NCBI GenBank assembly: GCA_019448385.1
Contig: JAGTXO010000036.1
Coordinates: 124,001-188,000, forward strand
Length of the DNA: 64,000 bases
From: Diacronema lutheri
Lineage: Eukaryota > Haptophyta > Pavlovophyceae > Pavlovales > Pavlovaceae
Direction of reading: 5' to 3'
Shown: piece after piece, positions 31,748-36,871 of the stretch
Position numbering within the stretch: position 1 is the stretch's first letter
How the letters are laid out: each line of letters begins with the position of its first letter
Position numbers and translations under genes: made by a program
Notes under the pieces: generated by a model
What the model was told of the DNA's origin: nothing
What the model saw: only the letters and a program-made list of their open reading frames with translations
Databases searched by the model: none

Positions 31748-32620
31748 TCACACGAGCAGCGAGAGCGGGTCGCGCCGCATCTGGCGCTCCAGCCTGATGA
31801 GCACGCCCCGGAAAAAGAGCGCGCAGAAGGTGTTGGACACCGCTGGGTGCGACTGCAGGTCAATGTAGTTTAGCATCTCGAGGTGGGCGCCCGCGTCGGC
31901 TGGCGACACACGCAGCGCGAACGTGTTGATCGCTCGGCGCGCGCCGGGCGCACGCGCGACGCCAAAGCGCACCGGCGCGGCTGGTCCCTCCTCGCGCGGC
32001 ATGCTCGCGTGCCGCACCGACTTTGAGGAAAATGTGCGGCTGTGAATGTCGATCGCGTTGAGCACGCAAAACTCGCGCGGCGCGAGCAGCCCCGGCAGCG
32101 ACGGTGTCACGGCGCGCGCGACCTCGAGCCTGCCGTGTGGCCATCGCCAGCCGGGCACGCGCGCGAGCGGCGCCGCGTGCCCGTCGGGCTCCGTCAACGG
32201 GTCGATAATCTCGTAGCCGCGCGGCGAGGTGAGCAGCTCAAAGATGGCGTCCGCGGTGCGCGCGCGCGCGCCCCAGTCGCCACCGGCGTGCGCACCCGCA
32301 ACGCGCACGGTCGCAGCGGCACGCATGAGAAGCAAGCCATCCGCCGCAAATGGCCCCTCGTCGACGCCGATCGATTCGACCGTCAGGCCCGGCCGCTCGT
32401 CGAGCGCGACCCAGCCGGCGTCTCGCGGCGCGGCCCAAAAGTCGTGCGCCTCGCGCAGCATCTCCTCGGCGAAAAGGCGGGCGACGGCGGGCTCGGTCAC
32501 GTCCTGCTCGCCGAGCAGCGCTACGCCACGCGTCCCGCGCCAGCGCGCAGGACTCTGCGCTCGCCAGCTGAGGATGGACGGCAGTGCGGCCAGCCAAACG
32601 ACGAGAGCGGACGGGTGCAT
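31748..32620 (-). CDS. START-domain lipid-binding protein with signal peptide
   Basis: 290 residues from the ATG at 32620. The first residues MHPSALVVWLAALPSILS followed by WRAQSPARW look like a signal peptide; an aromatic residue after the predicted cut and the basic stretch that follows would also suit plastid import, but that is speculative. The rest fits a START fold: the strand/helix pattern around GLTVESIGVDEGPF, IFELLTSPRGYEIIDPL, LAPREFCVLNAIDIHSRTF, SSKSVRH and the C-terminal helix LNYIDLQSHPAVSNTFCALF, which closes the lipid pocket in this family. It would bind and move a lipid or sterol. Divergently paired with the RRM gene (115 bp between ATGs). Confidence 0.72.
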   Translation of the reverse strand: MHPSALVVWLAALPSILSWRAQSPARWRGTRGVALLGEQDVTEPAVARLFAEEMLREAHDFWAAPRDAGWVALDERPGLTVESIGVDEGPFAADGLLLMRAAATVRVAGAHAGGDWGARARTADAIFELLTSPRGYEIIDPLTEPDGHAAPLARVPGWRWPHGRLEVARAVTPSLPGLLAPREFCVLNAIDIHSRTFSSKSVRHASMPREEGPAAPVRFGVARAPGARRAINTFALRVSPADAGAHLEMLNYIDLQSHPAVSNTFCALFFRGVLIRLERQMRRDPLSLLV

Positions 32621-32735: not shown

Positions 32736-35700
32736 ATGGCCACTCGCGAGACTGCGTCGCCCGCCGGGCGACCGCCGCGCGGCCCCGTGGAGTCGGGCGC
32801 GCCGCCGGCCGATCCGTTGGCCTCCGCATCTGACCCGCGCCTCAGCTCGAGCGATCGCGACGCCGTGCGCGAGCCCCACCCGTGGGACGCGCGCCCGAGC
32901 CGCGAGCCGCCGTCTGGCCGATCTGAGCGCGCGAGCTCTTCGGACGAGCGAGCGCGCGGCGAGCGCGGCCGGCCGGCGAGTGAGCGCGGCTCGCGCGGCA
33001 GCTCGCTCGAGCGCGACCGCTCGGCCGTCAACGAGCCCACCGACCGCGACGCCGAGCGCCGAGCGCCGAGCGGCGCGTCGCTGGCAGCGGCGGACGCGCC
33101 CGGCGCCGCACGCGGCAGCGCATCGCCCACGCCGCAGCAGGGCAATGCGGGCGTGGCGGACTCGAGCAGGGGCGGTGACGCTGGCACGGACTCTAGCGCG
33201 CCCGCCACTGCCGCTGCCGCTGGCGGTAGCGGCTCCGCACCCGCGGCCGCTGCACCCGCGGCAGCGGCGCCGAGCGGCGCGGACGGCGGCGGCGGCGGCG
33301 CGGCGGGCGATGAGGACGGCGCGGGCGCGGACGGCTCGGTCACGCCCACGCCAGTGCGCTCCGCTCCCGAGTCGCGACTCTCGCCGAGCACGCCTCTTGC
33401 CGTGCAGCTGCAGACACCGCAGCACAGCGCTGCAGTCGGCGCTCCGCCCGACGGCGGCATGGCGGGCGGCGGCGGCGGCGGCGGCGCGACCAGTGGCGCG
33501 AGCGGCGCGCCATTGCCCGCAGCGGACCGCTCGGCGCTTCGCCGCCTCTCGTCGGGTCCGGGCCTTGGCGCCACCTCCGCCCTGCCGACTGTTTCTACTC
33601 CGGGTGGCGGGTCCGTCGGCTCGGCGGCCACGCCGGGCACGGCCGGCTTGCGCGGCTCCGGCGGCGCGAGCCGGGCGTGGTTTCGGCTTCAGAACTTGAA
33701 CACGAACATCAAGAAGGACCAGCTGAAGGAGCTCTTCGCGTCCAACGAGCTGTATGGCCTGATTAACAGCCAGACCAGGGAGCGTCATCCTTTGTACGGC
33801 CTCACCGTCGATGTGAGGATGCCCCCCCCCCCCCCCTTTCCTACCCCCCCCCCCCCCCCCCCCCCTTGCCGTCATTCTTTGTACAGCCTCACCGTCGATG
33901 TGAGGATGCCCCCCCCCCCCCCCCCCCCCCCTTCCCTTTCCCTCCTCCCCCCCTTTCCCCATTTGCAGCTCTTCTGGGACCGCGAGGAGAACGCATCCCT
34001 CGCGATGGCCAAAATGCACGGCAACCACTTTGACGGGTACATGGCAAGCGAGCGATCAACGCTCCTCGTCGCGCCGGCGGGCCCGTGGGGCTCGGCGTTC
34101 CTCGAGACGCCCGGCGCGCGTTCTGTCAACGAGGGCATTGCCGCCGGCATGGGCGGCGGCGGAGGAGGCGCGGCGGCCGGCGGCTCGGCGGCGCGCGCGC
34201 GCGAGACGCGCGCCGGCGGCGGCGACGCGTGCGGCGGCGCGGGCGCGCGCGCGGGGGGCGGGCTGGGCGGCGGAGCGGGAGCAGAGCGGCCGGCCGGAGG
34301 AGCGCTCAGCAACGCGTGCGCCTCGAGCACGGGCCTCGTAGCGAAGAGCATCGCCGCCGCGGCGGCGGCGGGCGTGGGCGCGCAGCCGCTCGCCGACCGC
34401 CGACGAAATGGCGTGGCGCCGGACCTGCCGCCGGCGGCGCACGGCGCGGGCGCGGGCGCGGGCGGCGCCGCGGCGGGCGCGGACGGCGCGGACGGCGGCG
34501 GCTCGGCCGCGGCGGGCGCGAAGGGCGTGAGCGGTGCCGATCGCGAGGTACGCGAGCGGATGGGTGTCCCGGCTGCGTTGGGCGGCGGTGGCGGTGGCGG
34601 TGGCGTCGCCGGCGGGCCGGGCGCGGGCACGGGCGGCGGGGCGGCTGCGCCGAGCGCGGGCGTGCCGAGCGGCGGCGGTGGCGGTGGCCTCTCATCGCGT
34701 TTCGCAGCGCTCGCCAACGATGCAGACCATGCCGATCTCGGCATCGGGTTGAATGGCGGCAACGCGGCGGGCGGCGCGGCGGGCGGCGCGGCGGGCGGCG
34801 GGGCGGGCGGCGCGGCCGCGAGTGCCGGCGGCGGCGCTGCGCTTGCGGCGGCGGCAGCGGCGCTGATGGCCGACCCGGCGCTCGCGACGCCCGAGTGCGC
34901 GCCGCGCGACGGCAGCGGCCCCCTCGAGCATTACGAGTGCTTGCGCGACTATGACGGGTCGTCGCGTTTCGTCAACGTGCTCGACGGGCTGGCCGTGCAC
35001 GCGCACGCATTCCCGCCCGCGGTGGAGGAGGCAATCGCTGATGTTCTCGACGCGCTCATTGCCGACGGTTTCGAGGGCCGCCTTCTGCCCGGCAGCTTTG
35101 ACGCGCAGCGCAACTGGGCGCAGCATGGCGGCCGCGCGACAGTGCAGTTTGGTGCGTGCGCTGACTGTCTGCACCAGCACGAGCTCGACGCGGCGGGAGG
35201 CGCGGCAGCGATGGTCGCGCTTGCCGCAGGCGCGCACGCGGGCGTGCGCGTCGAGGCCCTGCCCGTGTGGCTCGTGCAGCTCATCGACCACCTCGTCGAC
35301 AGCGGGTGCGCGCGCGCGCGCGCCCGCCTGCCTCGAACCGCCGCCCGCGCCCGCGCCCGCGCCCGCGCAGCGGTCGGCGCACTCAAATCCTTTCCCGTGT
35401 ACCCTTCCCCGTGCCCTTTCCCGTGTACCCTTTCCCGTGCCCTTTCCCGCGTGCCCTTTCCCGCGTGCCCTTTCCCGCGTACCCTTTCCCGTGCCCCACG
35501 CGCGTGCGCCCTCTCACAACGCCCAGTCTGGTGAGCGAGGCGGCGAGGCCCGACTGCGCGCAGGTCTCGCGCTTCGAGGCGGGCGACTTCCTGCCGCCCA
35601 CCGCGGAGTCGGACGACTTTGAGCGGCCGACGGTTCTGCTGCCGCTGCGCGCGCAGCTGCCGCTCGTCTTCGGCCAGAGCGTGCTGCCCCTTGGCGAGGG

Positions 35701-36031
35701 CGCGTACAAGGGGAGCAGTCGGTTGCTGCTGCCGCGTCGCGCCGCGCTCGTCGTCGATGCGCCCGCCGGCTCGTACCTCGCGATGGCGGTGCCGCGCGTG
35801 CAGGAGCCGTGCACGCTGCTCACGCTGCGCAGGGTGGGCGAGCGGCAGCACGCCTCCATCCTGCAGCTGCGCGAAGCGGCGGCCATGGATGCGGCCGCCG
35901 CGGGTGCGGCCGCCGGCCGAGCGAGGCTCGCTGCGACGGGCGCGCTGCCGGTCGGGCAACCGCCCGTTCCGCCCGGACGTTGGAACGCACAGAGCGGCGG
36001 TGGGGCGCAGCAACCGCAAGCCTTTTGGTGA
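32736..36031 (+). CDS. RRM protein fused to an ALKBH9/10-like domain lacking iron ligands
   Basis: Exons 32736-33812, 33969-35305, 35527-36031 (972 residues); introns 156 and 221 bp, the first rich in C-runs, the second in CCCTTTCCCGTGTA repeats. The start is the ATG in ACAACATGGCC. RRM at about 313-395: AWFRLQNLNTNIKKDQLKEL, then LFWDREENASLAMAKMHGNH. A Gly/Ala-rich linker follows. Residues about 672-910 align by eye to plant ALKBH9/ALKBH10 RNA demethylases: AQHGGRATVQFGACADC, VEALPVWLVQLIDHLV and CAQVSRFEAGDFLPP. But where those enzymes have PPH-x-D, this protein has PPTAESDDFERP (Thr830, Glu832); the distal His position appears to be Met891; only the last 2-oxoglutarate Arg (906) remains. 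Probably an RNA-binding pseudoenzyme. Confidence 0.8.
33784..33968 (+). repeat. Duplicated exon end and donor plus C-runs in RRM intron 1
   Basis: A segment of about 47 bp (GTCATYCTTTGTACRGCCTC, then ACCGTCGATGTGAGGATGCC) occurs twice, 87 bp apart (from 33784 and 33871), each followed by a long C-run. It carries the exon 1 end and the GTGAGG donor. Both donors (33813, 33900) are in the same frame. Confidence 0.85.
35389..35495 (+). repeat. Tandem CCCTTTCCCGYG repeats in RRM intron 2
   Basis: About eight imperfect units of CCCTTTCCCGTGTAC, CCCTTTCCCGTGC or CCCTTTCCCGCGTGC fill half of the second intron, making a long pyrimidine-rich tract before the acceptor CAACGCCCAG. Confidence 0.85.
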
Positions 36032-36093: not shown

Positions 36094-36834
36094 CTACAAA
36101 ATGGCCTGCTTGACGAAGCGCAGGAGGAAGTTGTTTGCTGGCATCGCCTTGCGCGCGTGCAGCGCCATGCCGTGCGCGCCTGCGTGCGATGCGAGCGCCT
36201 CGACATCCCGGATGCCCCACTCGTGGTTGCGCTCGCGCAGCGAGCGGTCAAACTGCGCGTTCGACTCTGGCTCGCACACGCCGCCAACCTTGAAGGGCCC
36301 GTAGATGACGAGCGAGCCCGCGGGCGCAAGCGCGCGACTCGCGCCCGTAATAAGACCGCACGTCGCGCCCCATGGCGCGATGTGGCAGATGTTCACGGCG
36401 AGCACGAGCTGGTGCTGTCCCGCCGACGAGACTACGGGCGCGGGCCACTGCTCGAACGGCAGGCTCGCATCGAGCGCCGCGGCCGGCCGCACGTTCGCGA
36501 ACCGGCTCGAGCCATACAAGTCGATCGTCTCGAGGGCGCGCATCGACTCGTCGAACGCGGCGCCCGCGAACGCGGGAGCGCTGGGCTGGCCCGACACGTA
36601 CTCGGTCGGCAGCCACGTCAGCGAGGTGAACGCGGGCGCGAGCACCTCGATGTGCGCGCCCGTGCCGGACGCAACCTCGAGCGCCGGCCCAACCAGCTCG
36701 CCGAAGCCAAACTCGCGCAGGCCCTCGACGATCGGCAGCCTGTTTCGCAGCGCAGCGGGGTGATGCACCGCGCTCGCGCCGCCGATCGTCGCGGCCATCC
36801 TGAGGAACACCGAGAGGGCCCCAGTCACGGACAT
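36094..36834 (-). CDS. METTL26/DUF938-family SAM-dependent methyltransferase
   Basis: 246 residues from the ATG at 36834, unspliced. The SAM-binding loop is VLEVASGTGAHIEVLAPAF-like (ALEVASGTGAHIEVLAPAFT), and the family's hallmark segments follow: AVNICHIAPWGATCGLITGA, LVIYGPFKVGG and RSLRERNHEWGIRDVEAL. The protein is slightly longer than the usual ~205-residue family member because of a short N-terminal extension (MSVTGALSVFLRMAATIGGA) that might be a weak targeting signal. The substrate of this family is not known. Convergent with the RRM gene, 62 bp between stops. Confidence 0.88.
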   Translation of the reverse strand: MSVTGALSVFLRMAATIGGASAVHHPAALRNRLPIVEGLREFGFGELVGPALEVASGTGAHIEVLAPAFTSLTWLPTEYVSGQPSAPAFAGAAFDESMRALETIDLYGSSRFANVRPAAALDASLPFEQWPAPVVSSAGQHQLVLAVNICHIAPWGATCGLITGASRALAPAGSLVIYGPFKVGGVCEPESNAQFDRSLRERNHEWGIRDVEALASHAGAHGMALHARKAMPANNFLLRFVKQAIL

Positions 36835-36871
36835 GGCTGCTATGGGGGTACTGACTGAAAACGACGCTTAC

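Follow-up and report, generated by a model that had tools for sequence, protein, structure and literature searches.

We describe a gene of Diacronema lutheri whose product seems to have kept the outline of an RNA demethylase while losing the residues on which demethylation depends. The gene lies on the forward strand at positions 32736-36031 of a 64,000-nucleotide stretch (GenBank assembly GCA_019448385.1, contig JAGTXO010000036.1, positions 124,001 to 188,000), which we call the window and number from its first letter. Its predicted product joins an RRM-like domain, through long Gly/Ala-rich stretches, to a domain resembling ALKBH9 and ALKBH10, the plant demethylases of N6-methyladenosine (m6A). 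Judged from its residues, the product is very probably a pseudoenzyme. The explanation that we favor overall, and hold to be somewhat better than even, is that a pseudoenzyme has been conserved within the ALKBH5/9/10 lineage, that it is probably a scaffold of RNA and protein, and that it has probably outlived its original role.

Loss of the active-site residues

A protein search returned six proteins. P0001 and P0002 come from Pavlovales sp. CCMP2436, a haptophyte, and are 0.593 and 0.540 identical to the window protein; the corresponding values for P0005 and P0006 are 0.689 and 0.669. The remaining two, P0003 (an intron read-through) and P0004 (exon 3 of the window gene itself), are 99% identical to the gene's own exons and were left out of the counts that follow. 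According to passages of PMC3985658, the metal ligands of ALKBH5 are His204, Asp206 and His266, the contacts to 2-oxoglutarate (2OG) are Arg277, Tyr195 and Asn193, and Arg283 lies near the metal. The aligned residues are given below in ALKBH5 numbering and in the order window/P0001/P0002/P0005/P0006.

H204: T/S/S/S/T (T830 in the window protein)
D206: E/D/D/E/E (E832), an acidic residue in five of five
H266: M/T/T/L/L (M891)
N193: S in five of five (S819)
Y195: F/Y/Y/F/F (F821)
R277: C/V/V/C/C (C900)
R283: R in five of five (R906)

None of the five distinct sequences covering the site has kept either iron-ligand histidine, N193 or R277, and at most one acidic ligand is left to the metal site. 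By the established chemistry of the family, an AlkB protein that lacks its iron-binding histidines should not demethylate. An earlier note on this DNA, made from its letters, had called the domain catalytically dead, a description that the absence of both histidines from every aligned sequence supports well. T830-A831-E832, M891 and C900 are present at the numbers it gave. Its statement that all three iron ligands are replaced holds for the window protein, P0005 and P0006; it fails for the two CCMP2436 copies, which read S-A-D where the window protein reads T-A-E, the Asp surviving. Some 2OG oxygenases are described as managing with two metal ligands (in a passage of PMC3985658).

The note had also raised the possibility of an alternative exon that brings back the H-x-D motif. 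Between 35306 and 35860, a segment that takes in intron 2 and the exon 3 core, H-x-D is encoded in none of the forward frames, and because the core lies in one exon, no alternative exon can restore the motif there.

The replacements do not look random, since every one of the five sequences has S or T at position 204, D or E at 206 and R at 283. This regularity would suit a domain with some other enzymatic or ligand-sensing function, its S/T-x-D/E site and Arg906 binding a different metal or a small molecule. Such a metal site would have to work with no histidine at all, however, and the loss of N193 and R277 throughout takes away 2OG residues as well; we consider this explanation quite unlikely.

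Placement in the ALKBH5/9/10 lineage

The genome that we searched comprises 43,492,796 bases in 103 contigs; passages of PMC8379373 give the published assembly of D. lutheri NIVA-4/92 as 43.503 Mb in 103 contigs, with 73.25% GC and 45% single-exon genes. Our probe was a core of plant ALKBH9 type, which was checked against solved ALKBH5 chains (E 8e-14) and PF13532 (E 1.7e-12). It had three matches in the whole genome, the best of which was the window gene (E 3.4e-9), followed by an ALKBH8-like gene, L006 (1.2e-5), and by one match at 0.27. Against the window protein the probe scored 47.4 bits, while the best score reported for 1800 shuffled sequences (6 x 300) was 6.9, so that the likeness to ALKBH9/10 proposed in the note is borne out. 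Exon 3 alone (P0004) scored 39.7 bits, P0001 37.9, P0002 30.3, P0005 22.7 and P0006 21.9. Among the other AlkB cores of the same genome L006 reached 33.0 and nine others at most 16.6, the gene made up of L009 and L015 being left out. The probe residue is also found at 17 of the 46 core columns that are invariant in the window protein, P0001, P0005 and P0006.

A profile built from the family aligns with ALKBH5 in the expected register, from 'IPEWV' to 'CFG' with F-E-R-P included. Similarity to the plant probe beyond chance places the domain in the ALKBH5/9/10 lineage of RNA demethylases. By these scores, used in place of a tree, the window gene appears closer to the ALKBH9/10 probe than the other AlkB types of its genome are.

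Several results weigh against this placement. P0002, P0005 and P0006 score below L006 with the plant probe, P0005 and P0006 consisting of exon 3 only. The AlkB part has no Pfam match, whether single exons, the spliced domain or five family members are submitted. With the family profile, solved ALKBH5 scores no better than E 0.55 and ranks after NELF and tubulin (0.29-0.37, chance) among nine matches, and a single ALKBH5 fragment fails to find the family, with scores of 0.8-5.9 bits where the best shuffle has 7.9. Predicted structures are of low confidence: the mean AlphaFold predicted local distance difference test score was 33 for P0001 modeled with P0002, P0005, P0006 and the window gene's exon 3, and 39 for the unspliced RRM region alone.

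The genome contains 13 matches to PF13532, which we take to represent 11 distinct genes; by eye, every one of them has H-x-D, and the window gene is not among them. L009 and L015 are apparently exons of a single gene. L003 and L004, on contigs C77 and C78, are identical over 3633 bases, so that the locus was either duplicated recently or entered twice in the assembly.

One of these genes bears on a further explanation, namely that the window gene is a derived ALKBH8 and no relative of ALKBH9/10. ALKBH8, which acts on tRNA, has the order RRM, AlkB, methyltransferase, so that an RRM followed by an AlkB domain is a known architecture. (A passage of PMC11779730 refers to an RRM in ALKBH8A.) However, the genome has a separate ALKBH8-like gene, L006, with an intact H-C-D, and the L006 core scores the window protein at 12.7 bits (13.3 for the L010 core), against 47.4 for the plant ALKBH9-type probe. 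A derived ALKBH8 is extremely improbable.

Conservation among relatives

The window protein, P0001, P0005 and P0006 are invariant at 64 of 150 columns, and the C-terminal tail, up to a final FW, is common to the window protein, P0005 and P0006. The 315-aa model of P0001 begins just before the AlkB part. P0001 and P0002 are 90% identical to one another and lie on different contigs; they may be paralogues or haplotypes. When 5.8 billion proteins were searched with a profile, these six came back again; the search scored only the roughly 8000 candidates that shared most words with the query, a selection in which Ala-rich words may crowd out true relatives. Phage records and viral contigs held no relative of the gene.

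If the gene were a decaying pseudogene or the product of an assembly error, the loss of ligand residues would be explained, and its introns do contain poly-C and GC repeats. Yet the frame is open across three exons, and both long and short reads went into polishing the published assembly (a passage of PMC8379373). The four relatives, 54-69% identical to the window protein, preserve the frame and share the same losses, while retaining R283 and the acidic residue, and P0005 and P0006 also keep the C-terminal tail; the losses are therefore not the decay of a single copy. No orthologue with intact ligands, which the note had named as the sign of simple gene decay, occurs among the relatives found. 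Decay or error is very improbable. The loss of both histidines is common to several related algal proteins and appears to be conserved.

Gene model and the RRM-like domain

The gene is divided as follows.

Exon 1, 32736..33812, forward strand: long low-complexity N-terminus, then about residues 314-359, which form the first half of the RRM-like domain; reads on in phase into exons 2 and 3, partial match to RRM_1.
Intron 1, 33813..33968, forward strand: GT-AG, 156 nt, rich in poly-C, with no in-frame stop (from the sequence; read through in a 955-aa open reading frame, or ORF).
Exon 2, 33969..35305, forward strand: remaining half of the RRM-like domain, followed by the Gly/Ala-rich linker and the N-terminal part of the ALKBH9/10-like domain; P0001 and P0002 can be aligned with its AlkB part, and the RRM-like and AlkB parts show coding periodicity.
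Intron 2, 35306..35526, forward strand: GT-AG, 221 nt, frame-shifting.
Exon 3, 35527..36031, forward strand: core with T830-A831-E832, M891, C900 and R906, and C-terminal tail ending in FW (from the alignment).
Codons ACC-GCG-GAG, 35600..35608, forward strand: T-A-E in place of the iron-binding H-x-D (from the sequence, exon model and alignment).

Spliced at the joints that the note had chosen, the exons give 972 codons and a stop, and both introns are GT-AG. P0005 and P0006 start at the second full codon of exon 3, which suggests that intron 2 has the same position in these relatives. In intron 1, the end of exon 1 and the 5' splice site are duplicated (33783-33905, with the second copy at 33870-33905), giving donors at 33813 and 33900 that are 87 nt apart and in the same frame. 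Use of donor 33900, or retention of the intron, would stay in frame and lengthen the RRM-like domain.

GC content by codon position points to coding in both domains. It is 0.51/0.28/0.84 in the RRM-like part of exon 1 (33684-33812); over the two RRM-like parts it is 0.28 and 0.50 at position 2 and 0.84 and 0.86 at position 3, and over the two AlkB parts 0.46 and 0.51 at position 2 against 0.84 and 0.94 at position 3. The Gly/Ala-rich linker shows little such bias and three of its six frames are free of stops, so that it is only a putative coding stretch.

The note had the protein tied to RNA by its RRM. This is plausible, but the matches are weak: RRM_1 covers 18 residues at E=0.037, below the Pfam cut-off, and the PABP profile of NCBIfam covers positions 14-91 at E=0.041. 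Ten solved chains were listed at E <=10, and six of these are RRM proteins, with RNPS1 best (0.15), followed by nucleolin (0.39) and by U1A-type and TAR-binding chains (1.1-1.7). The other four are not RRM proteins (SusD-like at 0.27, and eIF3a at 0.36, 0.52 and 1.5). By eye, the aromatic positions of RNP1 look replaced. A weak NCBIfam match to a V-type ATPase was put down to chance. We found no second copy of the region in the genome. We therefore call the domain RRM-like, and its identity as an RRM plausible but weak.

It is also conceivable that the model joins two genes, an RRM-like gene followed by one for an ALKBH9/10-like pseudoenzyme, and that translation does not run through the linker. 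The start of the P0001 model just before the AlkB part would agree with this, as would the composition of the linker. So would the lack of any RRM-containing relative: a masked RRM+AlkB query, whose length window of about 308-980 aa excluded P0002-P0006, returned P0001 alone. On the other hand, the second half of the RRM-like domain and the AlkB part share one open frame of exon 2, and in P0001 too the AlkB part is preceded by an Ala-rich stretch. We regard a division into two genes as doubtful.

The m6A pathway in the genome

The genome has one match to PF05063 (MT-A70), L016 (C28:179601-180125). Its best solved match is 'Methyltransferase-like protein 2' (7.4e-26), followed by chains of an 'MT-a70 family protein' at 9.4e-8 and weaker, and none of its eight solved matches is named METTL3 or METTL14. 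We take 'Methyltransferase-like protein 2' to be the plant homologue of METTL4, so that L016 would be METTL4-like. A probe of plant METTL3 type, whose E value against solved METTL3 is 2.5e-97, had no match in the genome at E 10. For YTH, neither the profile (E up to 1) nor a checked plant probe (E up to 10) gave a match in the genome, and FTO had none there either. WTAP and VIRMA stayed below the cut-off, at best E values of 0.0037 and 1.05. PF05971, the METTL16/RlmF family, occurs at two places, L025 on contig C82 (E 1.3e-82) and C75:386189-387145 (E 1.5e-40), one of which may be METTL16.

Because METTL3 and METTL14 were not found, the usual m6A mark of mRNA is probably missing, and because YTH readers went undetected along with the writer, the protein has probably outlived its original role. 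It is the joint absence of METTL3/METTL14 and YTH that would carry this argument, and no single null search. That the gene was kept after the loss or strong remodeling of the mRNA m6A pathway is, in our judgment, evenly balanced. The more specific proposal, that Pavlovales lost the METTL3/METTL14-YTH pathway and that the ALKBH9/10 protein survived under selection as a non-catalytic scaffold of RNA and protein with an RRM-like domain, is tentative, and we place it below even.

Three points count against both proposals. Absence searches of a genome, run without a positive-control genome, prove little alone, as introns can split genes. The published genome is 80.8% complete by BUSCO (a passage of PMC8379373), which weakens the absences. 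And some N6-methyladenosine may be made, given the METTL4-like and METTL16/RlmF-family genes. The absence may also not be general in haptophytes, because Emiliania huxleyi, a haptophyte, is named in supplementary captions on orthologues of ALKBH9/10 and ECT2/3/4 (PMC6576107).

The note had interpreted the protein as an m6A-binding reader. On that interpretation the former active-site pocket would recognize m6A and the RRM would add affinity. The ALKBH9/10-like domain without iron ligands, the RRM-like domain and the possible presence of some methylated adenosine all speak for it. The results give no support to preservation of the base pocket, however, and with METTL3/METTL14 and YTH not found in the same genome the usual mark to be read is probably missing. 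The claim is not supported, and we hold it to be unlikely.

A possible role

How the favored scaffold might work can be outlined. The domain keeps the ALKBH9/10 landmarks and, lacking the iron histidines, the 2OG Asn and the first Arg, would be unable to demethylate. Retention of the S/T-x-D/E site and R906 suggests that something is bound in the groove or at its rim; less certainly, this would be RNA, protein or another ligand, bound with no chemistry. Together, the RRM-like domain, the long Gly/Ala-rich stretches and the groove would most likely make the protein a scaffold in RNA-protein granules. ALKBH9B has been reported in cytoplasmic granules (a passage of PMC6576107). We put a scaffold or RNA-binding role at about an even chance. 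Against a pure scaffold, the conserved acidic residue and Arg could mean that a ligand pocket has been retained.

A catalytically dead protein of an RNA demethylase family, shared by several related algae, would offer a natural way to tell binding apart from catalysis in the ALKBH9/10 fold. Should the writer and the reader indeed have been lost, Pavlovales would be a natural experiment on an m6A eraser in the absence of mRNA m6A.

Neighboring features

Upstream, a divergent ORF of about 290 aa with a hydrophobic start lies on the minus strand at 31748-32620, about 115 bases from the ATG of the gene; the frame holding it has no Pfam match. Given the size of this gap, the two perhaps share a promoter. 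Downstream, a convergent minus-strand ORF at 36094-36867 has a strong match to DUF938 (E 5.3e-46). GC content in the window is 61-81% per 2-kb stretch, and Rfam gave no matches in the window at gathering scores.

Comparison with known systems

A literature search with limited terms, covering few subscription papers, found no description of a dead ALKBH9/10 protein. The nearest known systems are compared here. With plant ALKBH9B and ALKBH10B, which are m6A RNA demethylases, the window protein shares the core landmarks, and its gene is the best match to the plant probe in the genome. It differs from them in its Fe ligands (T, E and M for H, D and H), in the first 2OG Arg (Cys) and in the 2OG Asn (Ser), and it adds the RRM-like domain and the long Gly/Ala-rich stretches. 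Animal ALKBH5 aligns with the profile in register, including F-E-R-P, and its R283 is kept in the window protein, whereas the same ligands are lost and similarity to ALKBH5 alone is not significant. ALKBH8 has the same order of RRM and AlkB domains, but the AlkB part of the window protein is not ALKBH8-like and exon 3 has no methyltransferase match in Pfam.

In the wider 2OG-oxygenase fold, UTX-1 of C. elegans reportedly has a function that does not depend on its catalytic activity. UTX-1 is an enzyme that has a further role; the likeness lies in a role free of catalysis, whereas in the window protein the catalytic residues themselves are gone.

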